Below, piece by piece: positions 32,666-62,768 of a stretch of 64,000 nucleotides of DNA. Origin of the DNA: Symbiodinium sp. CCMP2592 (taxonomy: Eukaryota > Sar > Dinophyceae > Suessiales > Symbiodiniaceae); contig CAJNDT010005833.1 in NCBI GenBank assembly GCA_905221615.1, positions 194,001 through 258,000 on the forward strand, read 5' to 3'. Made by a program: the position numbers and the translations under genes. How positions within the stretch are numbered: position 1 is the stretch's first letter; every line of letters begins with the position of its first letter. The notes under the pieces were generated by a model that was not told where the DNA came from, ran no database searches, and saw only the letters and a list, made by a program, of their open reading frames with translations.

Positions 32666-32696
32666 TGCTGCCGCTGGCCCGGCATGGGAGCCATAC
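32666..32696 (-). CDS. Q/P exon Q1
   Basis: GTAGAG| then 31 nt coding MAPMPGQRQ, then CA|GCTTC. It is the leftmost clear member, set between two telomere-like arrays of opposite orientation. Confidence 0.35.
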
Positions 32697-32703
32697 CTCT
32701 ACA

Positions 32704-32990
32704 GTTTAGGGTTCATTTAGGGTTTAGGGTTATTGATTTTTGGTTTTAGGGTTTAGGGCTTAGGGTTATTATTTTTTTGCTTTAGGGTTAAGGGCTTAGG
32801 GATACTATTTTCTTGTTTTAGAGTTTAAGGGCTTAGGGTTATTTTTTCTGGTTTAGGGCTTAGGGCTGATATTTTTTTGTTTTAGGGCTTAAGGATAAGG
32901 GTTTAGGGTTAAGGGTTTTTTGGGTTTGGGGTTCAGGGTTCTTAAGGGGTTTAGGGTTTAGGATTTAGGGTGTAGGCTTTAGGGGTGTAT
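32704..32990. repeat. Interstitial telomere-like array (TTTAGGG)n, degenerate
   Basis: G-rich strand on plus: TTTAGGG with TTATT, TTTTTGG and CTTAGGG interruptions over nearly 290 bp. Confidence 0.85.
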
Positions 32991-33410
32991 GGGATGAGGC
33001 TTTAAGATGTAAGGAAGGCTTTAGGGTAAATAGGGGCTTCTTCCCGAAGATCTCTCAGCGGTCTCAGGTGTAGGGAAAATAGCTGCAGCTGCAGGTTGGT
33101 TTCTTGCATTCATGGTTCCCTTAAGGGTCCCTTTCAGGGCTCCTTTAAGGAGTCCATCCCGGGCTCCTCTTTGGGGTTGTCTAGGGGCTTCCGAAGGTTT
33201 TTTGCAAGGGGGTTGGGGCTTAGGATAGCTCGGTTTTCCAGGGTTTCCGAAGCCGAAAGCCCTACACCCAAAAACATTACACCCTAACCCACAAAGCCTC
33301 GGCCTCAGCCTTGCCTTTTGACAACCTGACTCAATTAGGGCCCCTAATCGAAACCATATCGTAATCGAAAGAAACCATATCCTAGATTAGGGTCCCTCAT
33401 CGAATCCATA
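32991..33410. other. Stretch without a supportable gene
   Basis: G-rich telomere-like tail, then unique sequence. An inverted pair ACCATATC...GGTATCG-like near 33340-33390 is too short to call. Confidence 0.4.
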
Positions 33411-33411
33411 T

Positions 33412-33514
33412 TTGGATGGTTGTCAAAATTATGGTCCCTTTTTGGGTCCCTGCTACAGTACGGCACCTATTATGGTACCCAGAAAGGGGCCCTAATTTTT
33501 GGAAACTCCCATAT
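33412..33514. repeat. Chimeric hairpin: family E left arm, family B right arm
   Basis: The left end TGGATGGTTGTCAAAATTATGG is E; the right end TTTTTGGAAACTCCCATAT is B. The middle TACGGCACCTATTATGGTACC is E-like. The two halves no longer pair at the termini. Confidence 0.8.
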
Positions 33515-34120
33515 CGTGCTCTTCTCGAAACCAATCGATCCGGCCCGAAAGCTCTCTTGGAAGCAGAGATGACCCGAAACTCTCCCCAAACTCCCGTACC
33601 CGAGGGTGAAAGGAGGGACCCCAAATAAGGACCCCTAGGCATATTCCCTTAATATAGCTATTATATCCCCATTATATAGCCCAAAATAGGGTAGGGGTCC
33701 CCTTTGAGGCTCCCTCCTTTTCCCCTTTGACCGTAAGCACAACTACCCCTAAGGAAGCCTTAGAAACTTTCAGGAACTACGTATAGGGAACACTCCAGGG
33801 AAGCCTTCAGGGGACCTCATGCAATCAGGTTCGGGGTTCTCGTGCGGGCTTCAGGTTTGGGGCTTGGGGCTTGGAGCTTAGGATTAATTTAGGTTTGGGC
33901 TCTACCGGGTTTAGCTCACGGTTTAGGGCTCAAGGTATTGGCATAGTTGCCCCGCCCCATCTGGAACAACGCCCTCAAACCACTCATCCACTATGAACCC
34001 TGGTGATGCTGCTGGTTCTGGCGCTGGGTGTTTCGCTATGTACTGACGGTGCTGATGAGCTGCCATTGGAGCGATCGTCGCGGGCGGGACCCCAGTTTGC
34101 GATATGCGTGACACTCTCCT
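33515..34120. other. Stretch without a supportable gene
   Basis: Unique sequence with some telomere-like text near 33840-33940. No splice-supported exon or hairpin was seen. Confidence 0.4.
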
Positions 34121-34125
34121 GGTTC

Positions 34126-34212
34126 ATGGTTGGGACAAGGTCAAAAATCTATTTTTTATTCGTTATTGGGTTTAAGTACCCTTAAAAATGTAAAACTTTG
34201 CCCAACTATGAC
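34126..34212. repeat. Family L repeat (copy L2)
   Basis: GGTTGGGACAAGG...TTATTGGGTTTAAGTACCC...TTTGCCCAACTATGACAAAG, matching L1. Confidence 0.7.
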
Positions 34213-34478
34213 AAAGTCTCGACTCCTTCGCGGCAGTCCCTGCTCCCCAGAGAGTTTCGGACAGAGCCTCGGCTCCGATCGATGGATAATCACAAAAACG
34301 GATGGGCTACGACTCTATTCCAACTGTGCCAGACCTTTTAGATACTGGGATCAACCCATCCTCGAAGTCCTGAACACACAAGCTTCGGCCCTGCGCGGCG
34401 CCTTTTCCCCCAAAAGCCAGAAACCTTTCACCTTCCAATCTTCCAGTGTCCTCAACCCAAAACGAAGTTCGCCAGTGA

Positions 34479-34579
34479 TATAGGGGCCTTCACAATTAGA
34501 ATAGGGTTTCGGGGCCCATTATACCATACTTATAATAAGGAACCCCATAACAGTATTGGTATCTATTTCGGGCCCTAAA
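34479..34579. repeat. Hairpin element, family D (copy D3)
   Basis: TATAGGGGCCTTCACAATTAG at the left, TATTTCGGGCCCTAA at the right, GGGGCCCATTATACCA inside. Confidence 0.8.
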
Positions 34580-34687
34580 GCATCACCTTAACAGTTGTAA
34601 TGCCAGCCTGTTCCTAGTCTTCAAACAAACTCCCCCCAAGAGGTGCAAGGATACCATAGCAAACCTACGGGCCGGATCCTGCCTATT

Positions 34688-34779
34688 ACCCTAAGGCCCA
34701 AAGTAGTTCCTTTTGGGGGTTCATATATAGAATCCTATAAGGTAGTCCCAAACAGGAACTACTGTGGGGCCCCTGGGTA
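34688..34779. repeat. Hairp. element, family C (copy C4, loop inverted)
   Basis: ACCCTAAGGCCCAAAGTAG and TACTGTGGGGCCCCTGGGT arms; the loop reads TTCATATATAGAATCCTATAA, the reverse of C3, so its orientation is opposite. Confidence 0.85.
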
Positions 34780-34858
34780 CCCAAAGCCAACAAAAATAGA
34801 AATCGTACAAACCTTTGAACCAGGATCCTTTACACACACCTCGCCAAGACAAGCCAAG

Positions 34859-35177
34859 ATACCTGGCTTTGCAACCGGCCTGAATCATTTAGCAGCTTCA
34901 GAAGACGAGGGCGCTGTTTCGAGTTCCCTACGTTTATTTTTAACGCCTTTAACGCTTCAACACGCGTAGAGACGGGAACCTCTGACACAATTGACGGAAC
35001 ACATCGGACCTTCTGCTCAGGCAGGTTCTGGGGCTTCGGGTTTTCAGGGTTTTTGTTCTTGCCCAAGAAGGGAGGATCCATCGAGTTTTGCTTGCGGGAC
35101 GGTATGGTTCGCTTTAGTATTCTTCTTTTCTCGGAGAGAGAGGGGCATAGGCCCCGAAGTTTCAGGTTTGGGTTCAA
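34859..35177 (-). other. Possible coding block ending at a GT donor
   Basis: A minus-strand open block has a Lys/Asn/Pro-rich part (KNKNPENPKPQNLPEQK) and a helix-prone part (RVEALKALKINVGN), ending at AGCCAG|GTATCT. In another frame its last 17 nt read PVAKPG and would fit a CAQPG-type exon between Q2 and Q1. The two readings exclude each other. Confidence 0.25.
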
Positions 35178-35461
35178 AATTTGTGTGACGTTGGGGTCGG
35201 TGCTATGGTGTTAAACCTGCTATGAACACCAAGAAAATTGCTTGGCCCGTAAGATTCCGGCTGATGAATTCGGAAATTGTATAAGGGCCTGTCTAGACAA
35301 ACTTACCGAATGCACAGGAACCTTGGAAAGTACACGACTCACATGAACAAACTTATTAGTACCCTGACAATCATCCCCACAACCTGCCTGCTAACCTCGT
35401 ATGCTTAGACTACCTACAGGAAAGAAGCGTCCAAGCAAGAGTGCTGCACAGCTTCGGAGGC

Positions 35462-35507
35462 TGCTGACACGGCTGCTGAAAAGGCTGCGCCGCTGATGCG
35501 GAGCTCC
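35462..35507 (-). CDS. Q/P exon Q2
   Basis: GTTAG| then GG and an open frame coding SSASAAQPFQQPCQ, ending CA|GCAG. The leading GG still gives Gly after a phase-1 G. Confidence 0.4.
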
Positions 35508-35888
35508 CTAACGTCGCAAAAAAAGGAGCATTGAACATGTAAGCAGGTTCACAATTTAGAGCCAGGGTTCAAGACCGAGGGGATGTGAAGGCTGGGGCGG
35601 AATACCGTGTGCTACCATCAATGGAGGGACCTCTGGGGAAAAGACCACAAGATGCGTGTAAGAAATTGGTGGTTTAACATTGCTACCTTTTGCGCTTGTG
35701 CATTTCGAGCAACAAAGATCCGAAACCTGCCCAATGGCCCGAAACCTGCCTGCCCAATCGAGACGTGCAGCAAATGCTTGACAAACCTACAATGAACCCG
35801 CATCAAGGACAAGCTTTGCCCGAGTCATCATTCGTCCGTACAGCGTGGAATCCTGAGGCCCAATTGGGGCAAACAGATCCGCGGTGGC

Positions 35889-35902
35889 CTAGTTGCGCAC
35901 AC
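35889..35902 (-). CDS. CAQPG-type micro-exon (between Q3 and Q2)
   Basis: ACCGAG|, 14 nt coding CAQL plus G, |GCCACC. The Pro codon is changed to Leu (CTA). Confidence 0.4.
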
Positions 35903-35973
35903 CTCGGTGACACCAGTTGGTGTGGACAGGCAAGGCTGTAATCAGGAGAGGTGCATGCAAGGTTCATTCGTAC

Positions 35974-36081
35974 TATAGGGGCCTTAATAATTGATTAGAA
36001 TAGGGGTTTGGGGCCCATTATACTGTAATTTTAACAAGGAGCCCTCAGAATAGTATTGTTAATTATCTATAGGCCCCTATA
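35974..36081. repeat. Hairpin element, family D (copy D4)
   Basis: TATAGGGGCCTTAATAATTG and the complementary AATTATCTATAGGCCCCTATA. One of the better D copies. Confidence 0.9.
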
Positions 36082-36151
36082 CTACACAAAACGTGGTCCA
36101 ACAAAAGCCGACCTTCGCTCAAAATACTCACAGCCTACGAACCGATTTGGA

Positions 36152-36259
36152 TAATGTAGGAACCTGATTAAGAAACCTTGGGCCTTGATTAAGCTATATG
36201 AATCCTACTACTATTTTGGGGTTATAGGCCCAGGTTTTCTTAATCAGGTTCCTACATTA
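36152..36259. repeat. Hairpin element, family F (copy F2)
   Basis: TAATGTAGGAACCTGATTAAG and its exact complement form 21-bp arms; loop TATGAATCCTACTACTATTTTG. Confidence 0.92.
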
Positions 36260-36675
36260 ACCAAGTTGAAGTAAGTCGACCTTCAGCCCGGAAGCCCAAA
36301 CAACCCTGTCCAAGGGCAGCGTGGTGATAAAACCACGGATATTACTATTACTATAACTTTTACTATATTATTGCTATCAGCATGGAACAGAGGTACATGA
36401 ATTGAAGGGTTCACTCGTAGACAAGAAGGCGTCCGGCTCCGATGTATTTCGACCGTTTTGAATAAATCGAGGCTCACACTTCCTGTAGACCGTAAACCGT
36501 GCTGCGGCTTCTACCGAATTCCGGCAGAGGATCGGTCTGCGTACCTCTCTCACATCTCCATGAGACCAAAACCAGCAAGATAATTAACTCCAATGCCTAA
36601 TACCCGAGAACAGGATCTGATTCAGGGTTGACATGGGTTAACAACCGTAAGCAGTTGATGCCAAGCCACGGGTGC

Positions 36676-36742
36676 TGTTGCTGATACGGCGGCTGCGCAG
36701 TGGGCGGTTGCTGATGCGACGGCTGAGCATTTGGATCAGCGC
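36676..36742 (-). CDS. Q/P exon Q3 (array unit 1)
   Basis: GACACAG|, coding ADPNAQPSHQQPPTAQ and on to CAACA|GCAC. The most diverged array copy, yet the frame is kept. Confidence 0.45.
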
Positions 36743-36854
36743 CTGTGTCTCATTAGACAAAGAAATCTTCCTGCCCGGGTGGGAACTTGGCATTGGTGCT
36801 AAGGCTAGCCGTCCGAAAACTGCAACAGAAACCAACTCTGCCAATATCCCTGGC

Positions 36855-36868
36855 CTGGCTGCGCGCAC
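36855..36868 (-). CDS. CAQPG micro-exon (array unit 1)
   Basis: CTGAG|GTGCGCGCAGCCAG|GCCAGG; the intron to Q3 is 112 nt with GC-AG ends. Confidence 0.45.
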
Positions 36869-37206
36869 CTCAGAGGCGGGTATTCCTATAGTTTGGTCTA
36901 CACAGCTTAGCCACAACAGCTCTTGAAACTCCGAAGAGGCATGCGACTAGCATCTCAATCAAGAGCTCTCGATACGCATGCGGCTTCTGATCACTTGCAA
37001 ACACTTGTAGTTAACGTATGCATACGCCTACACAAGCTATCATCCGCGATCGACCGCTTACCCCAGTGAACCGGGCCGCACATTTCCGACGTCAAGAACC
37101 GTCACAACAGGAATCATGCTTATTACCAGCACTCAAAACACCGCAAAATTCGCAACGCCCAGTTAGCATGAAAAGTGCAAACCTGCACTTGCTGCACAGC
37201 AACGGC

Positions 37207-37273
37207 TGCTGCTGAAACGGCTGCTGGGCAGCTGGTGGCTGCGAATACGGCTGCTGGGCATTTGGACCAGCGC
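37207..37273 (-). CDS. Q/P exon Q4 (array unit 2)
   Basis: GAGACAG|, coding AGPNAQQPYSQPPAAQ, ending CA|GCCGTTG. The 3' boundary can slide by 3-6 nt within the CAG run. Confidence 0.5.
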
Positions 37274-37380
37274 CTGTCTCATCAAGCAAGATGTATGATT
37301 GATTGGTTGGAACTTACATTTGTTCCAAGGCTAGCCGTCCGAAAACTGCTTGAGCAAACAACTCTCCCAATACCGCTGGC

Positions 37381-37394
37381 CTGGCTGCGCGCAC
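37381..37394 (-). CDS. CAQPG micro-exon (array unit 2)
   Basis: TTGAG|GTGCGCGCAGCCAG|GCCAGC; intron of 107 nt to Q4. Confidence 0.45.
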
Positions 37395-37770
37395 CTCAAT
37401 TGCCGGGATTCCTGTTGTTCTATACAGCTTAGCCTCAACAGCTCTTGTATCTCCGGAGAGGCATGCGTCTAGAGCTCCCGATACGCATGGTGCTTCAGAT
37501 CACTTGTCGCTGACATGTGCATAGGCCTACACAATCTATCATCCATGATCGACCGTTTGCCCGCGAAAATCGGGCTGCACATTTCCAACGTGAAAAACCG
37601 TCGATAACCCTTGCTGCCGACATATCGGAATCTGATTGCAGGCACGGGGCCGGGAATACTGACAGCTACATGTACATACATGAGGTATGATACTTACTAC
37701 GAGCCCTCTAAACAGCAACTCTCTGTTAGCATTTAAGCGTGCAAACCCGCACTTGCTGCACAGCAACGGC

Positions 37771-37837
37771 TGTTGCTGAAACGGCTGCTGGGCAGTTGGT
37801 GGCTGCGAATACGGCTGCTGGGCATTTGGACCAGCGC
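37771..37837 (-). CDS. Q/P exon Q5 (array unit 3)
   Basis: GAGACAG|, coding AGPNAQQPYSQPPTAQ; one CAG is replaced by CAA (silent) relative to Q4 and Q6. Confidence 0.5.
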
Positions 37838-37944
37838 CTGTCTCATCAAGCAAGATATGTGATTGATTGGTTGGAACTTACATTTGTTCCAAGAAACGCC
37901 AACCTTAAACTGCAACAGCAAACAACTCTCCCAATACCGCTGGC

Positions 37945-37958
37945 CTGGATGCGCGCAC
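37945..37958 (-). CDS. CAHPG micro-exon (array unit 3)
   Basis: TTGAG|, 14 nt with CAT in place of CAG (Gln to His), |GCCAGC; intron of 107 nt. Confidence 0.45.
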
Positions 37959-38291
37959 CTCAATTGCCGGGATTCCGATAGCTTGATCTATACAGCCTAG
38001 CCACAAGGCAGGCGACTGACATCTCACTCAAGAGCTCTCGATGCGCACTTGTAGCTAACATATGCATACTCCTACACAGGCTATCATTATACCCCGAGAA
38101 CCGGACTGCAAATTTCCAAGGCGGAAAACCGTCGATAACCCTTGCTGCCGACATATCGGAGCCGGTTTGCAGGCAAGAGACTGGAAATACAGACCGCCAC
38201 AAACTCACGAATCAACAAACATATTTCTACAAGGACTCCACGCCCAGTTAGCATTGAACTTGCAAACCTGCACTTGCTGCACAGCAACGGC

Positions 38292-38358
38292 TGCTGCTGA
38301 AACGGCTGCTGGGCAGTTGGTGGCTGCGAGTACGGCTGCTGGGCATTTGGACCAGCGC
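38292..38358 (-). CDS. Q/P exon Q6 (array unit 4)
   Basis: GAGACAG|, coding AGPNAQQPYSQPPTAQ; the frame stays open far past the proposed donor, so a longer exon cannot be excluded. Confidence 0.5.
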
Positions 38359-38474: not shown

Positions 38475-38488
38475 CTGGCTGCGCGCAC
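38475..38488 (-). CDS. CAQPG micro-exon (array unit 4)
   Basis: TTGAG|GTGCGCGCAGCCAG|GCCGGC; intron of 116 nt to Q6. Confidence 0.45.
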
Positions 38489-38848
38489 CTCAACAGCGGG
38501 GATTCCTACAAAGCTTGGTATGTGCAGCTTAGCCTCAACAGCTCTTGCAACTCCGGAGAGGAAAGGCATGCGACTGGCATCTCAATCAAGATCAATCGAT
38601 ACGCAAGCGGCTTCTGATCACTTGCAACCAATTGTAGCTAACGGATGCAGATGCCTACAGTGGTTGTGCATGATCAAGCGCAATGGACTGTGAGGACCGG
38701 CCGTACCGTTCCAATGTCGAAAACCATCGATTAGCTGGAAAACGACTTAGGGAGCCCTTAACCCGGAATAACATGAGGGATGCCGAACTCTGACACTCGC
38801 CATTCCCTCTCAATCCTTGCACACCCGCATTTGCTGCACGGCAGCGGC

Positions 38849-38918
38849 TGCTGCTGCATCGGCTGCGGCTGTTGGGCAGTTGCTGGCTGCGAGTACGGCT
38901 GCTGTGCATTTGGAGCGC
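38849..38918 (-). CDS. Q/P exon Q7 (array unit 5)
   Basis: ATGAGAG|, lead one codon shorter than in Q4-Q6, coding APNAQQPYSQPATAQQ, ending CA|GCCGCTG. Confidence 0.45.
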
Positions 38919-40380: not shown

Positions 40381-40395
40381 CTGTAGAGCGGCGGC

Positions 40396-40462
40396 TGTTG
40401 TGGATACAGCTGCTGTGCAGCTGCCGGTGGTGGACTCGACTGGAAACCATTCGGAACGGTGC
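40396..40462 (-). CDS. Q/P exon Q8
   Basis: CAACCAG|, coding TVPNGFQSSPPPAAAQ, ending CA|GCCGCC. Confidence 0.45.
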
Positions 40463-40892: not shown

Positions 40893-40906
40893 CTGGTTGA
40901 GCATAC
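40893..40906 (-). CDS. CAQPG-type micro-exon (between Q9 and Q8)
   Basis: ACTGAG|, coding YAQP plus G (TGC to TAT; GCT and CAA silent changes), |GCAGCC. Confidence 0.4.
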
Positions 40907-41415
40907 CTCAGTTTCTTCGAGTGATTTAAGATTTGAGTGGCTTGATTTCGTTTGGGTTGAAGGATTTCCGATTTGGGTGGTGTGGTTGTTATATAGATTG
41001 AGCAATGAGCAACAATTGAATTAGGGTTGAGGCTGTCAGCTGTGTCTGCCTGGTGGAATTGCCTGTATCAAGGCTGGTTTGGGCTCGGCTCAGGTGCTTT
41101 GGGGAAGTGACAGAGCCCTGAACAACTTCAATCAGCATTAAGGTTAAGGATGTTGGACTCACTGCAGGGCTGCCCAGTTACCTGCATAGTTTGTTGCTGC
41201 TCCATAAACAACCCCAATGGAACAACATGGAATACGTAACTCGATGTGGCTGGGCTTCGGGAGTTTCAGAACTTCAATGAACCCGGGTCTGATAAAGGTT
41301 TTGAACTAATCGGGTCATTCCTAGACGGACCCCTAAACCCTCCGCCCTGAAACCTCAAGCCTAAAGCCTATCAGCCATAAAGCTCTAACGGATAGACTTG
41401 CTTCTGCACAGCAGC

Positions 41416-41446
41416 TGCTGTTGACAGGGCTGTTGAGCAGCGGGAC
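41416..41446 (-). CDS. Q/P exon Q9
   Basis: TGTGACAG|, short lead, coding PAAQQPCQ, ending CA|GCTGCTG. The shortest Q exon together with Q1. Confidence 0.4.
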
Positions 41447-42616: not shown

Positions 42617-42630
42617 CAGGCTGCGCGCAC
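42617..42630 (-). CDS. CAQPG micro-exon (between Q10 and Q9)
   Basis: AACGAG|, coding CAQP plus G (CCT, silent), |GCTCCT. It lies at the very edge of the minisatellite, so the acceptor is preceded by repeat sequence. Confidence 0.45.
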
Positions 42631-42639: not shown

Positions 42640-45600
42640 ATGCTGATCTTTCTGGCTTTGGCACTGTGCCTGTACGGATCTTCCTGGAAGTCGGCACTCG
42701 GCCTTTTCTCTGATCTTGCTCGATAACTGCATTCTGCCTTTTCTGAACTTTCTGGATGTTGGCACTGATCTTTCTGGTTTCTTCTGATCTTTCTGGATAA
42801 TGGCACTCTGCCTTGGCTGATCTTTCTGGATGTTGGCACTGATCTTTTTGGTTTCTTCTGATCTTTCTTGATAATGGCACTCTGCCTTTTGTGATCTATC
42901 GTTCTGGAAGTTGGCACTGATCTTTCTGGTTTCTTCTGACCTTTCTGGACAATGGCACTCTGCCCTGGCTGATCTTTCTGGATGTTGGCACTGATCTTTC
43001 TGGTTGCTTCTGATCTTTCTGGATAATGGCACTCTGCCCTGGCTGATCTTTCTGGATGTTGGCACTGATATTTCTGGTTTCTTCTGATCTTTCTGGACAA
43101 TGGCACTCTGCCTTTTCTGATCTATCTTTCTGGATGTTGGCACTGATCTTTCTGGTTTCTTCTGATCTTTCTGGATAATGGCACTCTGCCTTTTCTGATC
43201 TATCTTTCTGGATGTTGGCACTGATCTTCCTGGATAATGGCACTCTGCCTTTTCTGATCTACCTTTCTGGATGTTGGCACTGATCTTTCTGGCTTCTTCC
43301 GATCTTTCTGGATAATGGCACTCTGCCTTTTCTGATCTATCTTTCTGGATGTTGGCACTGATCTTTCTGGTTTCTTCTGAATTTTCTGGATAATGGCACT
43401 CTGCCTTGGCTGATCTTTCTTTCTGGATGTTGGCACTGATCTTTGTGGTTTCTTCTGATCATTCTGGATAATGGCACTCTGCCTGGGCTGATCTTTCTGG
43501 ATGTTGGCACTGATCTTTCTGGTTTCTTCTGATCTTTCTGGATAATGGCACTCTGCCCTGGCTGATCTTTCTGGATGTTGGCACTGATCTTTCCGGTTTC
43601 TTCTGAATTTTCTGGATAATGGCACTCTGCCTTGGCTGATCTTTCTTTCTGGATGTTGGCACTGATCTTTCTGGTTTCTTCTGATCTTTCTGGATAATGG
43701 CACTCTGCCTTTTCTGATCTATCTTTCTGGATGTTGGCACTGATCTTTCTGGTTTCTTCTGATCTTTCTGGATAATGGCACTCTGCCCTGGCTGATCTTT
43801 CTGGATGTTGGCACTGATCTTTCTGGTTGCTTCTGATCTTTCTGGACAATGGCACTCTGCCTTTTCTGATCTATCTTTCTGGATGTTGGCACTGATCTTT
43901 CTGGTTTCTTCTGAATTTTCTGGATAATGGCACTCTGCCTTGGCTGATCTTTCTTTCTGGATGTTGGCACTGATCTTTCTGGTTTCTTCTGATCTTTCTG
44001 GATAATGGCACTCTGCCTTTTCTGATCTATCTTTCTGGATGTTGGCACTGATCTTTCTGGTTTCTTCTGATCTTTCTGGATAATGGCACTCTGCCTGGGC
44101 TGATCATTCTGGATGTTGGCACTGATCTTTGTGGTTTCTTCTGATCATTCTGGATAATGGCACTCTGCCCTGGCTGATCTTTCTGGATGTTGGCACTGAT
44201 CTTTCTGGTTTCTTCTGATCTTTCTGGATAATGGCACTCTGCCCTGGCTGATCTTTCTGGATGTTGGCACTGATCTTTCCGGTTTCTTCTGAATTTTCTG
44301 GATAATGGCACTCTGCCTTGGCTGATCTTTCTTTCTGGATGTTGGCACTGATCTTTGTGGTTTCTTCTGATCTTTCTGGATAATGGCACTCTGCCTTGGC
44401 TGATCATTCTGGATGTTGGCACTGATCTTTCTGGTTTCTTCTGATCTTTCTGGACAATGGCACTCTGCCTTGTCTGATCTATCTTCCTGGATGTTGGCAC
44501 TGATCTTTCTGGTTTGTTCTGATCATTCTGGATAATGGCACTCTGCCTTTTCTGATCTATCTTTCTGGATGTTGGCACTGATCTTTCTGGTTTCTTCTGA
44601 TCTTTCTGGACAATGGCACTCTGCCTTTTCTGATCTATCTTTCTGGATGTTGGCACTGATCTTTCTGGTTTCTTCTGAATTTTCTGGATAATGGCACTCT
44701 GCCTTGGCTGATCTTTCTTTCTGGATGTTGGCACTGATCTTTCTGGTTTCTTCTGATCTTTCTGGATAATGGCACTCTGCCTTTTCTGATCTATTTTTCT
44801 GGATGTTGGCACTGATCTTTCTGGTTTCTTCTGAATTTTCTGGATAATGGCACTCTGCCTTGGCTGATCTTTCTTTCTGGATGTTGGCACTGATCTTTGT
44901 GGTTTCTTCTGATCTTTCTGGATAATGGCACTCTGCCTTTTCTGATCTATCTTTCTGGATGTTGGCACTGATCTTTCTGGTTTCTTCTGAATTTTCTGGA
45001 TAATGGCACTCTGCCCTGGCTGATCTTTCTGGATGTTGGCACTGATCTTTCTGGTTTCTTCTGATCTTTCCGGATAATGGCACTCTGCCTTGTCTGATCT
45101 ATCTTTCTGGATGTTGGCACTGATCTTTCTGGTTTCTTCTGATCTTTCTGGATAATGGCACTCTGCCCTGGCTGATCTTTCTGGATGTTGGCACTGATCT
45201 TTCTGGTTGCTTCTGATCTTTCTGGACAATGGCACTCTGCCCTGGCTGATCTTTCTGGATGTTGGCACTGATCTTTCTGGTTTCTTCTGATCTTTCTGGA
45301 CAATGGCACTCTGCCTTGTCTGATCTATCTTTCTGGATGTTGGCACTGATCTTTCTGGTTCCTTCTGGTTTTACTGGATAATGGCACTCTGCCTGGGCTG
45401 ATCTCTCTGGATGTTGGCGCTGATCTTTCTGGTTTCTTCTGATGTTTCTGGACAATGGCACTCTGCCTTATCTGATCTATCTTTCTGGATGTTGGCACTG
45501 ATCTTTCTGATTTCTTCTGATCTTTCTGGACAATGGCACTCTGCCTTTTCTGATCTATCTTCTGGATGTTGGCACTGATCTTTCTTGTTTCTTCTGATCT

Positions 45601-45720
45601 TTCTGGATGTTGGCACTCTTTACTGACCTTTCTGGCTTCTTTCTGATCTTTCTCCATAATGGCACTCTGGCTTTTCTGATGTTTCTGGATGTTGGCACTC
45701 TGCCTTTGCTGATCTTTCTG
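42640..45720. repeat. Minisatellite of 74- and 78-bp units (about 40 copies)
   Basis: The anchor AATGGCACTCTGCC recurs at 42799, 42873, 42951, 43025, 43099, 43177 and onward. Units share TTCTGGATGTTGGCACTGATC and TTTCTGGTTTCTTCTGATC; the four-base difference is CTAT or TTCT inserted in the GATC(TAT)CTTTC joint. Edges are degenerate. On the minus strand all three frames are open for hundreds of codons because 74 is not a multiple of three and no frame holds a stop. I treat it as repeat DNA in an intron. Confidence 0.95.
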
Positions 45721-46883: not shown

Positions 46884-47092
46884 ACTTGCAAGTTACCCTG
46901 TTTGTATACCGGCTCAAGCTCTGCAGGTTAGTTCCCTGATCTTCCATACCCAGTGGGAATGTATCCCTTCCAAACCAGCCTAGTGTTCAACCACACCGAG
47001 GCTCAGTTGGAGGCATCATCATCATAAAACTGAAATGATACCGACATCTCAAATCGTGCCAACAAGTCTTCCTGCTTCAGAGCTGCGGCAGC

Positions 47093-47156
47093 TGCTGGTA
47101 CTGCTGCGGAGCAGGAACTTGCTGGTGACACGGCTGCTGGGCGGCAGGAGCAGCGC
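47093..47156 (-). CDS. Q/P exon Q10
   Basis: GAGACCAG|, coding AAPAAQQPCHQQVPAP, ending CA|GCTGCC. The frame is also open upstream of the acceptor (ELEEWVFPSSLGDFYDAD, to about 47304), so this exon may be longer. Confidence 0.45.
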
Positions 47157-47975: not shown

Positions 47976-47989
47976 CTGGCTGCGCGCAC
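47976..47989 (-). CDS. CAQPG micro-exon (between Q11 and Q10), GT donor
   Basis: TCTGAG|GTGCGCGCAGCCAG|GTTGGC. The one standard-type copy whose downstream donor is GT instead of GC. Confidence 0.5.
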
Positions 47990-48322
47990 CTCAGATACTT
48001 GAGGAATTTGGGGTTTGGCCCGGGTCAGGGAATTTGATGAAAGCTCAACCGAATCGTCAACCTCGATAACCCGCTTGGGGCTGGAGACTTCGAGCCCGAG
48101 AAAACATAGATCTTGGGTTTGGAGTCTGGTTTCGGATGTAGGGTTCTGCGGCTGGCTGAAAAAGTCACAGGCCCTACCTTGGGGCTGCTGCTACACATCA
48201 AAGAATTAAAGATGGCCCGCAACTCAGCATAGTAGAACAATCACTCAATCCAGAAATATTGGACTGGAACTATCCAGAAATCCAGAAAAATACAACTGTA
48301 CTAAGGCTGACGTTGGCACGGC

Positions 48323-48386
48323 TGCTGCTGGTACTGGTTTGGGTACGCCGCTGGCTGCTGAAACGGCGGCTGGCTTCCGAAAGCAC
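48323..48386 (-). CDS. Q/P exon Q11
   Basis: CCGCAAG|, lead GTGCTTTC, coding AFGSQPPFQQPAAYPN and on to CA|GCCGTGC. A quite different peptide that keeps frame and ends. Confidence 0.45.
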
Positions 48387-48949: not shown

Positions 48950-49605
48950 ACTCTGCGACAAGAGCTCAGCACTCACATAAATGTAGAATGTAGAACACAG
49001 GAAAGCACCAAGCATATGTCGTAAGCAAACTTAGTGGCGCAGCTGCGAAAGAGAAACCCGAAGCCAAAGCCCTAGCAACAACATCAACAGCAACAAGCCC
49101 CTAACCCACAAGCCCTAATCCTAATATCCTAAACAACAAACCCAAACCAACAGCCCTATAACCGGATGCAAATCCAAAAAATGCCTTGTTTCCCCTTCTC
49201 ATTCCTGCATACATCACTCTAAGTCTCCTTTTACCCTAAACCCTAAACCCTAAACCCGAAACCCTAAACCCTAATCCAAAATTCTTCAATCCGAGGATCC
49301 TGGCTGAGACCTCCGTAACGGCACGGACAGGTCATCAGGGCTCACAGGGTTTAGGGCTTTAGGGTCTATAGTTATTAGGAGTTATAGGGTTGAGGGTCTG
49401 GTTACATTGTTTGTAGAGGCTTAAAATCAAGGGTTGAGGATCTCGCTACAAGCACTTACAGCGTTTTAGGCTTCAGGGGTTTAGGCTGCAAGGCGTAAGT
49501 CATAAGAATCAAGTGTACTTGCCGTTCAAGCATCGATTCCCGAAGGTTTTTCCACGCTTTCTGACTGGGGGGCTTCAAGCGCCGGGTTTTAGGCTTACTG
49601 AAGCG
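48950..49605. other. Presumed intron with telomere-like arrays
   Basis: CCCTAAA units at 49232-49273 and G-rich degenerate units at 49340-49490. No exon block was seen. Confidence 0.5.
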
Positions 49606-52195: not shown

Positions 52196-52212
52196 CTGGC
52201 TGCGGGGCAGGC
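52196..52212 (-). CDS. PAPQPG micro-exon, 17 nt (between Q12 and Q11)
   Basis: CCTGAG|, 17 nt coding PAPQP plus G, |GCTTCT. One codon longer than the standard block, so the frame is preserved. Confidence 0.4.
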
Positions 52213-52604: not shown

Positions 52605-52666
52605 ATTAGGGGCTCATCGAAACCCAGGGCAGAATCCTTCAGCCCTAAACTGCGCTTGTATGCACA

Positions 52667-52769
52667 TGGGTGGTTGTCAAAATTGTGGTCCCTTTGTGGG
52701 TACCCTAAATAATATGTGCCGTACTATAATAGGGACTCAAAAAGGGACCATAATTTTGACAACCATTCA
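52667..52769. repeat. Hairpin element, family E (copy E3)
   Basis: TGGGTGGTTGTCAAAATTGTGG and CATAATTTTGACAACCATTCA; loop with GTGCCGTACTATAATAGGG. Confidence 0.9.
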
Positions 52770-52993
52770 CATGTCAGTGCCTAGCCGGTTGGAAAACGGG
52801 CTCTTTAACGGACAATCACAGCATACTGATGACGAAACCCTAAGCCCTGAACCGTACATCAGGGTTCCTTAAAGGGGACCCTACTTCGGAGAACTAGCCT
52901 TAAAGTACCCTGCGGTTCAGAAGGGCTGCCTCTGTGAGTCCCCGCAACTACACTCGCATTGGCCAGGCTGGTCTTTAGGGCTCAGGGTTAGCA

Positions 52994-54874: not shown

Positions 54875-55104
54875 TCAGGCGTCAGCACACGATGAGGCCA
54901 AGGGGCCAGTCATCGTGTTACACCTCGGAAGAAGCGATTCACTCACTGGGTTGTTCTCGCACTCTGTACCGGCCATGTTGGGCTTTACAACAACGGGCTT
55001 GTAGAGGCTTTGAAACGGGTTTATGGAGGTTCCAGATCGCTTTTGTGCCCCGCAGCCAAGCAACGGCTGCTGAAACGGCTGCTGGGCTGGCATGGGGGCC
55101 GCAC
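54875..55104 (-). CDS. Q/P exon Q13, possibly a long terminal exon
   Basis: ACCAAG|, coding AAPMPAQQPFQ. A short version would end at CA|GCCG (55068). The frame instead stays open for another 65 codons of normal-looking protein (FQSLYKPVVVKPNMAG, then CADA and TGA at 54875). With no CAQPG block following before Q12, this may be the C-terminus of the upstream gene. Confidence 0.42.
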
Positions 55105-55819: not shown

Positions 55820-55836
55820 CAGGCTGTGCAGCACAC
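55820..55836 (-). CDS. CAAQPG micro-exon, 17 nt (between Q14 and Q13)
   Basis: TTCAAG|, 17 nt coding CAAQP plus G, |GCAGCT. One inserted Ala codon; the frame is kept. Confidence 0.4.
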
Positions 55837-56803: not shown

Positions 56804-56832
56804 ATCCTCAGTAGTTTAAGTCGAGCTTCGGC

Positions 56833-56869
56833 TGCTGCTGATACTGCTGCTGCCCATTTGGAGGAGCAC
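56833..56869 (-). CDS. Q/P exon Q14
   Basis: GAGCGCAG|, coding APPNGQQQYQQ, ending CA|GCCGAAG. Confidence 0.45.
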
Positions 56870-57645: not shown

Positions 57646-57659
57646 CCGGATGCGCGCAC
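57646..57659 (-). CDS. CAHPG micro-exon (between Q15 and Q14)
   Basis: ACTGAG|, coding CAHP plus G (CAT, CCG), |GCTACT. Confidence 0.45.
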
Positions 57660-57765
57660 CTCAGTAGCATGGCTTTAGACGGGCGCCCTGGGTTTCTTCA
57701 GAAAAGACTTTGAGGAAATGCGAAGAGCCAAGATGAGAATACTCTAAGGGTTCAGGACTTGAAGG

Positions 57766-58062: not shown

Positions 58063-58540
58063 TGCTGTAAATCTTCTTTGAACGGTTCATCCTGAAACAC
58101 CACGCCGTATACTCAGTAGGAAAGGTCGCGTACCTGTCTAATACAGGCCCCCATGCTAATCATAACAAGACTAGAGTTTTCGAATTTTGTGGTATACTGA
58201 CCTGTCTATACTGTCGGACAAGTATAATTATGTAGGGACTGCTCGGGAAGTCAGACCGCTACATTATGCACATTCTCTAGATACCAAGCGCAGCCTTCTG
58301 CCTAATGCCAATGGGCCCTGAACGACGCAATCATACTGTACGCTCACCAAGACCCTATTCCGGATCCCTGGTCTCTGGCGCCAAGCGGACAGGACTTAGT
58401 CCAGGGGTTTAGGGTTTTGGATCTTAGGACTCAGGGGAGTCTGAACAGATGGGATGGTTTGATGAGTGCATCACTGTTTGAATCTTCGGATCGCAGTGAA
58501 TCTTCATATCCTGTAACTTCCATCAAACCCTCAGGGTTCA
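58063..58540. other. Presumed intron, no element recognised
   Basis: Unique sequence with a weak inverted pair around 58138-58265. No exon block. Confidence 0.4.
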
Positions 58541-58542
58541 TG

Positions 58543-58646
58543 TGGGTGGTTGTCAAAATGATGCTCCCTTTTTGGGGTCCCTAATATAGTACGGCACCTA
58601 ATATTTAGGGTACCCAAAAAGGGACGCTAATATTGACAACCACCCA
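58543..58646. repeat. Hairpin element, family E (copy E4)
   Basis: TGGGTGGTTGTCAAAATGAT and ATATTGACAACCACCCA; loop AGTACGGCACCTAATATTTAG. Confidence 0.92.
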
Positions 58647-58817
58647 TGTGCCTGCATCGCATCTGGTGTTTAGCGGACAAAGCAGGCACTTTCGAAAAGC
58701 TCAACACCACCTCCTCCACACCTGACTTATTCCTTTCTAGGAGCCCAGTTGCCTGGTAAATGGGTTACTGTTCCTTAAAGACCCCCCGGTACCCACATCC
58801 ACAGCTACAACTTTACA

Positions 58818-58940
58818 TGTCTGTATGTATGTGTGTATGTATGTTTGTATGTATGCATACGGGCATGCATGCATGCATGCAGAAAGGCAGGGGAAGCAGG
58901 CAGGCATGAAAGCAGGTAGGTAATTATATGTGTGTGTGTA
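58818..58940. repeat. ATGT/GCAT microsatellite
   Basis: (TGTA/ATGT)n, (GCAT)n and (GGCA)n segments in succession. Confidence 0.9.
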
Positions 58941-59109
58941 GAACAATTAGACAACACAATACCACACAACATAATGCAATAGATACAACAGATTGCAATA
59001 CCATGAATGCAAGACAGCTACAGCCCCACTACATTGTAAAAAAAGAAACAGTTAGGGCCTCACAATCTTGGACATGGCACTGGCTATATAATTGCTGCCT
59101 CGACACGGC

Positions 59110-59176
59110 TGCTGCGGGTACGGCTGTTGAGCAGTTGTTTGCTGCGAATATGGCTGGTAACCAGTTGGGGCAGCGC
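59110..59176 (-). CDS. Q/P exon Q15
   Basis: GAAGCAG|, coding AAPTGYQPYSQQTTAQ, ending CA|GCCGTGT. Confidence 0.48.
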
Positions 59177-59238
59177 CTGCTTCGTCAAGGAATGCACGGC
59201 ATGTGTGCGATGGTGGTTCGTGACTGGAATAATCCTAC

Positions 59239-59347
59239 TTGTCGGGTATCATGGGGAACTAAAGGTTAACCTTTTTGGTTATATAGGGATCATATAGGGG
59301 CTATATTCCCCAAAGAAGGTTAAAGGTTGCCTTCTCTACTACTAGGC
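59239..59347. repeat. Hairpin element, family I (copy I2)
   Basis: Nearly identical ends to I1: GTCGGGTATCATGGGGAACT at the left, TCTACTACTAGG at the right, separated by TTTTTGGTTATATAGGG. Confidence 0.85.
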
Positions 59348-59415
59348 AATTACATACCGAGCACAGCCAAGCCAAGCCGAGAACTGGTCTGGCACATTAT
59401 GTCCAAAGTGCCTCT

Positions 59416-59708
59416 TCAGCCTTGTTCATACCCAAGGTCGGATAGTGCGGGTGTAGGGATTAGGGGTTCCTGGTGCCTTCTGACCATCTCATACCGACCG
59501 TTTTCATCTTGCCGTCTCAGCTCATTTGAGGCGGAGGACGCTTGCTGCACGACCGTGAGAAAGACTTTGCCTACTGGGTATACTTGTGCAACTATATTGT
59601 CTTGAACCATTGCCGATATGCTCAAATGTTGCTCTTGTTGCCAGCGTAATTCTCTAACTATCATTGATGCGTCTTCTAGTCTTACCGTTCCCTCAATGTC
59701 GCAGTCAC
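59416..59708 (-). CDS. Candidate larger exon of the Q/P gene region
   Basis: ACCTGAG| then two bases and 96 codons to a TGA at 59416. The protein begins DCDIEGTVRLEDASMI, continues RWQQEQHLSISAMVQDN and KVFLTVVQQASSASNE, and looks like a folded domain. Its phase-1 start fits the CAQPG micro-exon at 59994-60007. For splicing on to Q15 it would need an internal phase-1 donor (AACG|GTCGGT near 59500 fits). Otherwise it is the last exon of an alternative transcript. No family is recognised. Confidence 0.5.
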
Positions 59709-59928
59709 CTCAGGTACTCCGATACTCAGCACGAAACCACCGGATCTCCAACGGGGCATTTCCGCAACGGGTGAGGAAGTCTGGGTTTAGAGTTTAGGGT
59801 TTGGGGTGTAGCGTTTTGAGTTTGGGGTTCTTGGGGAGGTTGCAATAACACTCCAACCACCACTGATCTGCAATACTGCCATCCCAAATCCAGACGCATT
59901 GTTAATTATCAAGTATTTAAAATACTTA

Positions 59929-59955
59929 ACCCTAAACCCTAAACCCTAAACCCAA
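59929..59955. repeat. Telomere-like array (CCCTAAA)n
   Basis: Three to four perfect units just left of the CAQPG block at 59994. Confidence 0.85.
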
Positions 59956-59993
59956 AATTTTTGGACCCTACAAGTCATTGCACGCCAAATGGC

Positions 59994-60007
59994 CTGGTTG
60001 CGCACAC
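59994..60007 (-). CDS. CAQPG micro-exon (between Q16 and Q15)
   Basis: GCTGAG|, coding CAQP plus G with silent TGT and CAA, |GCCATT. Confidence 0.48.
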
Positions 60008-60009
60008 CT

Positions 60010-60610
60010 CAGCCATGTGCTTGGCGTTGCACGGTGACCCCGGGATCAGGGTTGAGGGATCAGGGCTTAGGGTTGAGCGCCTACTGCATCACAGAACGAT
60101 TCAGGATCCCACACCGACAACACAGGACAAAGACGAAAACAAAACCGGGTGGAACTTTTTCAGAACCACCCTGTCGCCGAACAGAAAACACCACATTGCA
60201 CTGAAGCCACTTCTATGTACAGTAATGCGGGCTAGATTGCCTCCCATAATATACTTGCATACGATAACTGATCACGACCCCGCACATAGGCAACATGGCT
60301 TGTTAGGCTAGCCAAATCAGGTTGACTCCTCAACCAGTCTGCCGTCAGCAGCCGTCAGGAAAGCAAAGCGATTTCAGCAGCGAAATTCAGCATTTACGCT
60401 GCAAAGAATGATAAAGCATGATGGAAGCCGCCGACATGCATCAACAAAACTCCAAATGCGGGTCCGCTGATATCTTGCAGATAATATGTCTTTGTAGGGG
60501 TTGAATAGAAACTAGTGTTATATCCTGTCCCCCGTACACATAATCCGTACACTTCCATGAACCCAAACCCTTAACCCAAACCCCCTAAACTGGCCCGAAA
60601 CGTAGTTCAT
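60010..60610. other. Presumed intron, no element recognised
   Basis: Unique sequence. A plus-strand open frame (59961-60311) overlaps it without splice support. Confidence 0.4.
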
Positions 60611-60623
60611 GCAAAGCCGCGGC

Positions 60624-60702
60624 TGCTGCTGGTACTGCTGCTGGCACGGCTGCTGGGCCGCCGGTGGCTGCTGATAAGGCAGCTGGCCATTTGGAGCAGT
60701 GC
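60624..60702 (-). CDS. Q/P exon Q16
   Basis: TAGACAG|, coding TAPNGQLPYQQPPAAQ and on to CA|GCCGCGG. An in-frame TAG just before the acceptor rules out reading from further upstream, which supports the AG|G start. Confidence 0.5.
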
Positions 60703-60779
60703 CTGTCTAATGTGGGGGCGCAGTCATACACTCCTAATATACCTGTAAACGTCATAATGTACACAAGATTCTAGATGCA

Positions 60780-60870
60780 TCTATACATATATGTATGTGT
60801 ATGTAGAACAACATAGGTGTATATACATACGTGTTATGCATTATACATACTCTATATGCATATGTATATG

Positions 60871-60901
<31 letters not shown>

Positions 60902-60905
60902 GTTT
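60780..60905. repeat. TA/CA microsatellite
   Basis: ATGT, TATGCA and (TA)n(CA)n segments. Confidence 0.9.
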
Positions 60906-60959
60906 ACATACCCTTGTATACACACAAATTTCACGGTGTTTGCTGCTTTGTACACTTGT

Positions 60960-61490
60960 TGTACATATAAATCTACATGTATAGTCTTGATGAAGGTTCA
61001 TACATGTAGTCAAACAGGTTAGCGTGTGCCTTTCAAAGCGCCAACAGCCAACTGCTTTCACATCGGTGGCGAAGTCTGCGGTATCGGCTTCATTCGAAGT
61101 CTGTCATCGGTATCTCGCATATCTGACTGACATGTCCCCAAGATTCGTGGGAACCGACCGTTTCCCGGTTGGCAATTGCAGACTGAAGACAAAGGAAAAA
61201 ACGTGCAATCATGGGATCGGGTGGGGCGAAAATTGATGCGTATTGAACTTTCTGCCAACGTGGCCACCGTTTATATGTACATGGCATACACGATCGACGG
61301 CTCAGATCCAACGAAGTCGATCGATTGAAGCACGAAGGACGAAGAGCTGTAACTTCGCAAACAAGTGTACTACACATAAGCCCGAGAAATACAGAGTTTG
61401 CGAGAGTGCGTGCAGTAAGCTGATGGATAGATTTGCCGAGGAATCTCTCGATTGGTTTTCACACAGCCATCGAAATCATTCCCAAGGCCA
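60960..61490. other. Stretch open on both strands, no gene assigned
   Basis: Several overlapping open frames of 70-95 codons on both strands. The plus-strand 61243-61524 frame (for example ACSKLMDRFAEESLDWF) is protein-like but has no defined ends. Confidence 0.3.
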
Positions 61491-61492
61491 GC

Positions 61493-61506
61493 CTGGCTGC
61501 CCACAC
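61493..61506 (-). CDS. CAQPG-type micro-exon (between Q17 and Q16)
   Basis: GGCCGAG|, coding CGQP plus G, |GCTGGC. Confidence 0.42.
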
Positions 61507-61592
61507 CTCGGCCACAAGGCATAGCCCAAAGGACCCCTTTAAGGATACCATAAGGGTTCTATAAGGGCTCTATGGGGGTTTAGGGTATTTAA

Positions 61593-61793
61593 GGGTCCAT
61601 GTACCCAAATAGTATATATACTTTGGCCCCAACCTACAAAGGGAATAATTGAAGGCCAAAGTATATGGGTGGTTGTCAAAATTAGGGTCCCTTTTTGGGT
61701 CCTTATCATAATACGGCACCTAGTATTTAGGGTACCCCAAAAAGGGACACTAATTTTGACAACCACCCAAATACTGTTTCGGTGCATGGACCC
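61593..61793. repeat. Outer hairpin (single copy O) interrupted by E5
   Basis: GGGTCCATGTACCCAAATAG at the left and CCAAATACTGTTTCGGTGCATGGACCC at the right bracket a small ATACTTTGGCC/GGCCAAAGTAT hairpin (61615-61665) and a complete family E element. Confidence 0.75.
61666..61769. repeat. Hairpin element, family E (copy E5), nested
   Basis: TGGGTGGTTGTCAAAATTAG and TAATTTTGACAACCACCCA, 20-bp arms. It lies within the outer hairpin at 61593-61793. Confidence 0.92.
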
Positions 61794-61811
61794 CTCAGGT
61801 CTGGTCGAGGC

Positions 61812-61922
61812 CCCCCAAGGGTCCAAAGGACCCAATAATTAGGTACCCGGGTTTAGGATAGTAGTTATGTAGGTTAGGATTTTGGAGAGTTTATGATTAT
61901 TGGGTACTTGGACCCTTGGGGG
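61812..61922. repeat. Hairpin element, single copy N
   Basis: CCCCCAAGGGTCCAAAGG and CCAATAATTAGGTACCC at the left; TTATTGGGTACTTGGACCCTTGGGGG at the right. Confidence 0.85.
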
Positions 61923-62249
61923 CAGCTCCTGTTGCTTTCAGGGGCCAATCCTTTGACTATTGCTTGGATGCTTTACGGTACGGGACATTGTTCCTCAAGC
62001 GTCCCCCGAATTCTGAAACCTACTCCAAAATTTATTTTAAAAACCTGGTTCAGTTCTAATCCATAATGAAAGCCCTTCATAATGAAGTTTCAGGGTTTGA
62101 AGGATGACCAAAGGCAGAAGGTGGAAATTCCGAACACGAACTTGGTGGGAATACAGCTGGAGGTTCTCGGCAACAAACCTCGAAAAATAGCCTAGGGTTT
62201 AGCGTGCCTTGAGACATCTACCATTTGGGTGGGGCTTGTTGCTGGCAGG

Positions 62250-62428
62250 TAAGTACGCAAGACAAGAATACATCCGAATTGGGCAGTGCTAGTGGGTACT
62301 TGTGGTATTCCAAAAGCATCCCGGGATCAGCGATCCAGTTCGGAGTGGCTAAGAGTTGCGGGCCTAGGTTGGAGCTGCAAAAAGTTAAGGTAATCACAAG
62401 CTTGGAGTCATATCTAGCACAGGCTTAG
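62250..62428 (+). CDS. Candidate terminal exon, plus strand
   Basis: TTGTTGCTGGCAG| precedes an open block (TSELGSASGYLWYSKSIP, then KVITSLESYLAQA) ending in TAG at 62426-62428. The same site also reads CAG|GTAAGT, so 62249 could instead be a donor. The protein-like downstream sequence favours an acceptor or read-through. Confidence 0.35.
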
Positions 62429-62565
62429 TATTGCAACATCTGCCAAGAATTTCTTAGAGTCATCGATGTTTTGGCTTCTGGGCCGTTGTCGGATGGAGTA
62501 CGTCAACCTGACTGCCGGGATTGAGTGTAGAGCTTAGGCCAGCAAAGGCCCTCATCTTAGTTACC

Positions 62566-62640
62566 CTAATAGTAATAATAGTAATAATAGTAGTAATAGT
62601 AATAATAGTAATAATAATAATAACAATAATAATAATAATA
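62566..62640. repeat. TAA/TAG microsatellite
   Basis: (TAATAG)n then (TAA)n over 75 bp. Confidence 0.95.
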
Positions 62641-62734
62641 ACTGACACCCTGAACTCCAAAACCCTAAGCCCCAAACCGCAGGGACCCATTTTGGGTTTA
62701 GCGGTCATGGACTTAACCGACGCCGAGTCACGGC

Positions 62735-62768
62735 TGCTGATACTGTGGACAGCCCATGGGTGCCTGGC
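62735..62768 (-). CDS. Q/P exon Q17
   Basis: CCCCGAG|, 34 nt coding QAPMGCPQYQ, ending CA|GCCGTG. The rightmost member; the presumed intron upstream begins in telomere-like DNA. Confidence 0.4.

Follow-up and report, generated by a model that had tools for sequence, protein, structure and literature searches.

Bicycle proteins of aphids carry a CYC motif and a signal peptide. An aphid "megacycle" gene with more than 100 micro-exons is described in the part of PMC9168663 consulted here, and products of one family of schistosome micro-exon genes (MEGs) are reported to be disordered in the corresponding part of PMC10399815. For dinoflagellates, the portion of PMC10666404 on which we draw tabulates seven species, with a mean exon length of 99 to 120 nt in four of them and more in the other three. 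Splice donors in five of the seven are GC (44 to 58%), GT (24 to 37%) and GA (17 to 24%), with AGG at 80 to 97% of acceptors, and the other two use mostly GT donors. Here we describe a locus of the dinoflagellate Symbiodinium sp. CCMP2592 in which a coding sequence looks as if it were cut into some thirty tiny pieces, apparently of one gene, over a 32-kb stretch. The locus lies largely within the window, a 64,000-nucleotide stretch of DNA at positions 194001-258000 of contig C4971, in a genome assembly of 1.098 Gb and 5,383 contigs.

Two families of blocks on the minus strand

The array spans 32.7 to 62.8 kb of the window on the minus strand and consists of 17 Gln/Pro-rich blocks (Q) and 15 micro-blocks that encode CAQPG or variants of it (C). 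A typical Q block reads G-x-A-P-x-x-Q-Q-P-Y-x-Q-P..., with a core of 11 to 27 codons in the 17 cores measured. The C consensus is G TGY GCG CAR CCN G, with AG before it and G after it; twelve copies are 14 nt long, two are 17 nt and one is 11 nt. A preliminary description of this DNA had listed 17 Q blocks with an AG/G start (the slash marks the splice junction) and an xAP lead, and all of them were confirmed on the minus strand. It had also listed thirteen C blocks of 14 to 17 nt; the blocks are real, and the count is corrected to 14 of that length plus the one of 11 nt. The features, in window coordinates, are as follows.

62731..62768, minus: Q exon core QAPMGCPQYQQP; phase-1 start after CGAG/G; weak donor
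61493..61506, minus: C micro-exon, 14 nt (CGQPG); found by mismatch and codon-level patterns
60576..60702, minus: Q exon; modelled AG/GC...GG/GTTAAG
59994..60007, minus: C micro-exon, 14 nt (CAQPG); mismatch and codon-level patterns
59059..59176, minus: Q exon; modelled to AG/GCCCTA
57646..57659, minus: C micro-exon, 14 nt (CAHPG); mismatch pattern
56829..56869, minus: Q exon core; donor uncertain, weak in-phase GC or GA only
55820..55836, minus: C micro-exon, 17 nt (CAAQPG); codon-level pattern
54924..55104, minus: Q exon; core 55104-55064, long form ends AG/GTGTAA
53324..53367, minus: Q exon core; AG/GT donor in phase 1
52196..52212, minus: C micro-exon, 17 nt (PAPQPG), after CCTGAG; codon-level pattern
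49300..49310, minus: possible C micro-exon, 11 nt (SQPG); GA donor; codon-level pattern
48308..48386, minus: Q exon; weak donor CA/GC
47976..47989, minus: C micro-exon, 14 nt (CAQPG); GT donor
47084..47156, minus: Q exon; weak donor CA/GC
42617..42630, minus: C micro-exon, 14 nt (CAQPG); mismatch and codon-level patterns
41398..41446, minus: Q exon; modelled donor AA/GTCTAT
40893..40906, minus: C micro-exon, 14 nt (YAQPG); mismatch and codon-level patterns
40392..40462, minus: Q exon core; without a phase-2 donor after the last Gln codon
39274..39287, minus: C micro-exon, 14 nt (SAQPG); mismatch and codon-level patterns
38825..38918, minus: Q exon; GG/GTGTGC donor
38475..38488, minus: C micro-exon, 14 nt (CAQPG), tandem unit; mismatch pattern
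38268..38358, minus: Q exon, 91 nt, tandem unit; AG/GTTTGC donor
37945..37958, minus: C micro-exon, 14 nt (CAHPG), tandem unit; mismatch pattern
37747..37837, minus: Q exon, 91 nt, tandem unit; GG/GTTTGC donor
37381..37394, minus: C micro-exon, 14 nt (CAQPG), tandem unit; mismatch pattern
37183..37273, minus: Q exon, 91 nt, tandem unit; AG/GTTTGC donor
36855..36868, minus: C micro-exon, 14 nt (CAQPG), tandem unit; mismatch pattern
36646..36742, minus: Q exon, 97 nt, most diverged tandem unit; CG/GTTGTT donor
35889..35902, minus: C micro-exon, 14 nt (CAQLG); mismatch pattern
35414..35507, minus: Q exon; TTAG/GG start, AG/GTAGTC donor
32633..32696, minus: Q exon (GMAPMPGQRQQLQ...), lowest block of the preliminary description; modelled to GG/GTTTTC
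63752..63765, minus: weak candidate C micro-exon (YGAPG), outside the 15 counted; score 9.6 against at least 28 for the 12 training sites

A protein hidden Markov model (HMM) run over six frames detected 16 Q blocks in the window, 14 of which came from its training set and match by construction. The 17th (32696) was picked up by an AG/G-xAP pattern and not by the protein HMM. An 18th, outside the window at 64721, is detected by the HMM and has AG/G and AG/GTAGGA in the expected phases; the weak C candidate at 63752..63765 sits between it and the 62.8-kb Q exon. Allowing up to 3 mismatches, the 14-nt C sequence occurs 12 times, always on the minus strand, compared to a mean of 0.24 over 100 shuffles. 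A codon-level pattern (AG, G, one to three free codons, CAR CCN G, then G followed by C, T or A) scanned over 164 kb matched at 12 minus-strand positions, each of them within the array, and nowhere on the plus strand; on 60 simulated strands the mean was 1.1 matches and the maximum 6. Nine of these 12 were previously known, and the new ones are at 55836 (17 nt), 52212 (17 nt) and 49310 (11 nt), the last of which could be a chance match. Three known C blocks, in which the Gln or the Pro codon is replaced by another, escape the codon-level pattern. A DNA-level profile derived from 17 of the 18 Q blocks gave no plus-strand match better than an E value of 3.2 and, needing no open frame, no further, decayed copies within the array; its two extra minus-strand matches, at 94.0 and -38.8 kb (E of 0.03 and 0.08), fall within frames of simple repeats. 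Thus, neither the protein HMM, the DNA profile nor the mismatch and codon-level C searches placed a Q or C block on the plus strand.

The two families alternate. As the preliminary description had claimed for nearly every neighboring Q pair, a C block is present in 14 of the 16 in-window Q-to-Q intervals. When C blocks were placed at random over all 18 Q blocks, the observed spread was reached in 100 of 200,000 draws for 12 C blocks and in 16 of 200,000 for 15. Interleaving was weaker with tandem copies collapsed, such that 2,498 of 200,000 draws reached the observed spread.

The blocks were also specific to the locus. The exact C pattern AGGTGYGCGCARCCNGG has six matches genome-wide, all six in the window and on the minus strand, and the same pattern read backwards has one. 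A 34-residue C+Q protein query gave eight genome matches at an E value of ≤10, seven of them here and the eighth elsewhere at 9.35. Of the 18 known Q blocks of this locus, that query recovers just 7, which means that more distant copies in other places would go unnoticed; the counts are lower bounds. Outside dinoflagellates, the Q open reading frame (ORF) had no related locus in viral or prokaryote contigs, and the C pattern matched 2 viral contigs, a number judged to be at chance level. We conclude that, as far as the exact C pattern and one Q protein query can tell, the array is not a dispersed repeat; the genome-wide scatter in both orientations that the preliminary description had named as speaking against coding exons was not seen with either.

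Coding signs and predicted splice sites

Differences between C copies fall at third codon positions in 13 of 17 cases (P = 0.0003) in the frame that joins Q to Q, as counted in ten sequences with tandem copies reduced and the three new C blocks left out. Moreover, C lengths step by whole codons (11, 14 and 17 nt), and Q length changes are codon-step too. The 17 Q cores contain no stop in 329 codons, of which 98 are CAG and 11 CAA. Each of these codons is one transition from a stop, and no TAG or TAA was found; the chance of this is roughly 9e-6, assuming that C-to-T change at position 1 has the frequency of G/A at position 3. In the three youngest tandem units, Q exons differ by 2 to 3% and have no gap, versus 12 to 26% for the intron between C and Q.

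C-Q modules like the young tandem units occur in three proteins from other assemblies, P0064 (on an ENA contig of 512,093 bp) and P0065 and P0066 (on a contig of 60,189 bp each), so at least one further assembly has all or some of the array. These sequences appear to be open frames running from intron through exon into intron. Within the Q exon, 29, 28 and 27 of 30 residues, respectively, are the same as in the window, and outside it 76 of 126, 44 of 78 and 38 of 70 are; for P0064 the difference between exon and flank gives P = 5e-5 by Fisher's test with residues treated as independent.

Block boundaries resemble splice sites. All 18 Q blocks start at an in-phase AG/G in phase 1, with the AG chosen to fit at 62.8 and 35.5 kb, and all 15 C blocks are preceded by AG and begin with G; the searches that yielded the three new C blocks and the 32.7-kb Q block required AG/G. 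The C donors are 13 GC, 1 GT and 1 GA. Twelve of the 18 Q blocks have an xG/G donor (next base T, C or A) in phase 2, which is the phase that the C micro-exon needs. Among AG/G donors of the same kind in the open frame after the Q run, tandem copies included, phase 2 accounts for 9 of 11 (P = 0.0014 versus one third). The predicted splice ends, where present, appear to match the usage of five of the seven dinoflagellates in the tabulated part of PMC10666404.

Two donor assignments were tried and dropped. Phase-1 donors for Q exons lacking a following C were abandoned for the block at 56.9 kb, where a 17-nt C lies at 55.8 kb. A CA/GC donor inside the Q run was abandoned for the tandem units, the conservation of which continues to AAGTGCRG/GTTTGC, and it is the sole in-phase choice for several older Q blocks. 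In addition, YGAG precedes the exon at 13 of 15 C acceptors and CAG at 12 of 18 Q acceptors. One of the C search patterns included GAG, and a search without it still recovered 11 of 12. YGAG may mark micro-exon acceptors specifically or may belong to a noncoding element, and we treat it as a lead because the copies share ancestry and GAG stood in one search pattern.

The proposed gene and its alternatives

Taken together, the blocks are probably coding exons of one minus-strand, intron-rich nuclear dinoflagellate gene that grew by duplication of a C+Q module. In the model, the repeated module would be two exons, a C micro-exon and a Q/P/Y-rich exon. The C exon (14 nt, range 11 to 17 nt) would encode (C, Y or S)AQPG, with entry in phase 2 and exit in phase 1; for the Q exon, entry would be in phase 1 and exit usually in phase 2. 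The predicted length of the whole module is therefore a multiple of three, such that duplicating, losing or skipping it would keep the frame. Splicing would use the GT, GC and GA donors and AG/G acceptors reported for dinoflagellates. The array may have grown by unequal module duplication, leaving four to five young copies at 36.6 to 38.9 kb and older modules with introns diverged past recognition. The encoded repeat protein would be rich in Gln, Pro and Ala, contain Cys, carry almost no charge and probably be disordered; in the 505-residue model, Gln makes up 25%, Pro 19%, Ala 13% and Cys 6% of the residues, Asp occurs once and Glu is absent. Disorder could be the functional basis, for example of a multivalent scaffold or wall protein. 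The locus would then be transcribed, spliced through its micro-exons and expressed as a single mRNA. That this mRNA holds 30 or more exons is something we infer, because donors are missing in some Q blocks, silent bias in Q is weak and the ends of the gene were not found.

Several results weigh against this gene. The intervals 55.1-53.4 and 35.5-32.7 kb are without a C block, and the interval 53.4-48.4 holds two. Six of the 18 Q blocks (62.8, 56.9, 48.4, 47.2, 41.4 and 40.5 kb) have no phase-2 xG/G donor, the one at 40.5 kb has no donor at all in phase 2 beyond its final Gln codon, and a seventh block (53.4 kb) has its AG/GT donor in phase 1. The Q exon of the fourth tandem unit (36.7 kb) differs from the other three by 31 to 33%, no less than its C-Q intron (26 to 31%). 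Silent change, which the preliminary description had claimed alongside whole-codon change for differences among copies generally, holds for C substitutions, and whole-codon change holds for C and Q lengths, but the claim is not clear for Q substitutions. These lean to silent sites only weakly, with 11, 17 and 21 at codon positions 1, 2 and 3 in three chosen pairs pooled (P = 0.10) and 3, 9 and 12 in another pair (P = 0.07); the pair of 38.36 and 47.2 kb runs the opposite way (4, 10 and 7).

Homologue searches add to these points. The concatenated model protein had no match at an E value of ≤0.001 among 7,989 candidates scored, in a composition-limited search of proteins 0.55 to 1.75 times the length of the query, against a database that includes Symbiodinium proteins and with one micro-exon entered as WAQPG for CGQPG. 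The model protein contained no Pfam domain, and no 5′ or 3′ exons were recognised in the flanking ORFs, which were read by eye.

One alternative, which we regard as unlikely, is that the array is the relic of a former gene whose exons have ceased to be spliced into protein, either as a pseudogene or as duplicate exons out of use. The six Q blocks without a phase-2 xG/G donor, the fourth tandem unit with its Q exon conserved no better than its intron, and the failure to find an annotated protein homologue or to recognise flanking exons would all suit decay. A relic is harder to reconcile with 329 core codons free of stops despite 109 CAR codons, with the low divergence of Q exons relative to introns in three units, and with a Q exon kept in the relatives P0064 to P0066.

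It is quite unlikely, in our estimate, that the blocks form several short genes in a unidirectional tandem array, or mutually exclusive Q exons, and not one mRNA. In the dinoflagellate Polarella, genes commonly lie in unidirectional clusters, according to the section of PMC7245778 used here, and several Q frames run into a stop shortly past the block (at 56.8, 47.1 and 40.4 kb, for example). On the other hand, neither start codons nor additional exons nor trans-splice signals were recognised between modules, where no systematic search was made; the alternating phases of C and Q would suit serial joining, and units of 530 bp would seem to leave little room for separate genes.

A third alternative accepts the Q exons and takes the 14-nt C block for a conserved noncoding element, such as an intronic splicing or pairing signal, between them. 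Conservation extending past the exon into YGAG in most C copies, where Q acceptors mostly have CAG, would fit such an element, and the absence of Rfam matches in the window at gathering thresholds is neutral. We consider it very unlikely, as third-position differences in C fall exactly in the frame that joins Q to Q, C lengths change by 3 nt only, and the phases of Q require the exon that joins them to be 2 mod 3 in length. Finally, that the blocks are carried by chance on a dispersed repeat or mobile element is hardly credible and largely refuted within the reach of an exact C pattern and a protein query that recovers the closer Q blocks. The window is rich in repeats (fold-back elements, a minisatellite, TTTAGGG tracts and a long terminal repeat [LTR] element), but the exact C pattern (6 of 6) and the Q protein query (7 of 8) stay at the locus and the blocks keep one orientation.

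We conclude that coding exons under selection, which the preliminary description had preferred to a drifting repeat, fit the data better than any rival and are partly supported. In their favor are locus specificity at the sensitivity of the two genome searches, a single strand, frame consistency, freedom from stops, codon-step lengths, AG/G acceptors and, in relatives, conservation confined to the Q exon; against them stand six Q blocks with no phase-2 xG/G donor, one with a phase-1 donor, and the weak silent bias in Q. If the gene is spliced as modelled, a spliceosome accepting the noncanonical GC and GA donors would define exons of 11 to 17 nt separated by introns that reach several kilobases, and protein repeats of dinoflagellates could grow by duplication of frame-neutral exon pairs. 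Gene finders could easily overlook such exons, so similar genes may hide in other dinoflagellate genomes. More tentatively, and with considerable doubt, we suggest that dinoflagellates have a class of micro-exons with its own YGAG/G 3′ splice-site signature (versus CAG/G) that stitches together a modular Q/P-rich repeat protein, the length of which could vary by skipping or duplicating frame-neutral two-exon modules, and that such a micro-exon gene evolved independently of those of flatworms and aphids.

Surroundings of the array and comparison with known systems

Elsewhere in the window, an LTR retrotransposon occupies 7140-18653 on the minus strand, between identical 151-bp direct repeats at 7140-7290 and 18503-18653; the identity of its ends suggests recent insertion. 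It contains a frame for a copia-type reverse transcriptase (RVT_2; 7457-12088) and a long upstream frame (12874-18444). The reverse transcriptase region is 69 to 70% identical to Symbiodinium natans RE1 and RE2 and 88% identical to an unnamed ENA protein, and it was the only Pfam hit among six chosen window ORFs. A minisatellite at 42705-45619 (78 bp, about 31 copies, also read as 152 bp) has long open frames in several minus-strand frames and is located in the intron immediately preceding the C exon at 42630. Elements of about 95 to 110 bp, of at least four families, occur in both orientations, several of them fold-back (matching their own reverse strand), for example at 459-563, 3713-3805, 27775-27878, 20187-20295 and about 20 more places, and also between array exons (e.g., 58540-58647, 61663-61769 and 52662-52773). 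These sequences resemble miniature inverted-repeat transposable elements or introner-like elements. Many TTTAGGG tracts are present, which together with the reverse transcriptase matches suit a source among dinoflagellates akin to Symbiodinium, and no tRNA or Rfam family was found in the window. Two frames downstream lie on the same strand as the array: L015 (C4971:189504-191084, minus), which by its motif DMCAAPGSK looks like an RNA methyltransferase, and L017 (C4971:168008-168898, minus), which by its motifs resembles an ankyrin-repeat protein.

The literature searched, from which subscription journals are mostly absent, yielded no earlier report of micro-exons in dinoflagellates. With the ordinary intron-rich dinoflagellate gene, as portrayed in the relevant part of PMC10666404, the array shares AG/G acceptors and, as modelled, many short exons and long introns; its candidate donors are GC, GT and GA in the C blocks, and six Q blocks have no phase-2 xG/G donor. 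It differs in that nearly half of its exons are 11 to 17 nt long and in being built from one repeating two-exon module. Should transcripts bear the model out, the gene would be divided unusually finely, in a manner described until now from worms and aphids. Like the array, schistosome MEGs carry their coding sequence mostly in very small exons that can be used variably without breaking the frame, by the account in the section of PMC4350168 at hand. MEG exons are symmetrical singly, whereas here only the C+Q pair would be: C exons of 11, 14 and 17 nt are 2 mod 3, and Q exons are mostly 1 mod 3 in a tally from an exon model whose two end blocks were mis-started. The lineages are also far apart and are likened here by architecture. 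Aphid bicycle genes likewise have many very small internal exons per gene; those exons are almost all phase 2, whereas phases here would alternate between 2 and 1 (bicycle data from the consulted pages of PMC9168663). By this analogy, MEGs and bicycle genes are the nearest systems in architecture, and the array would work like both while belonging to neither.

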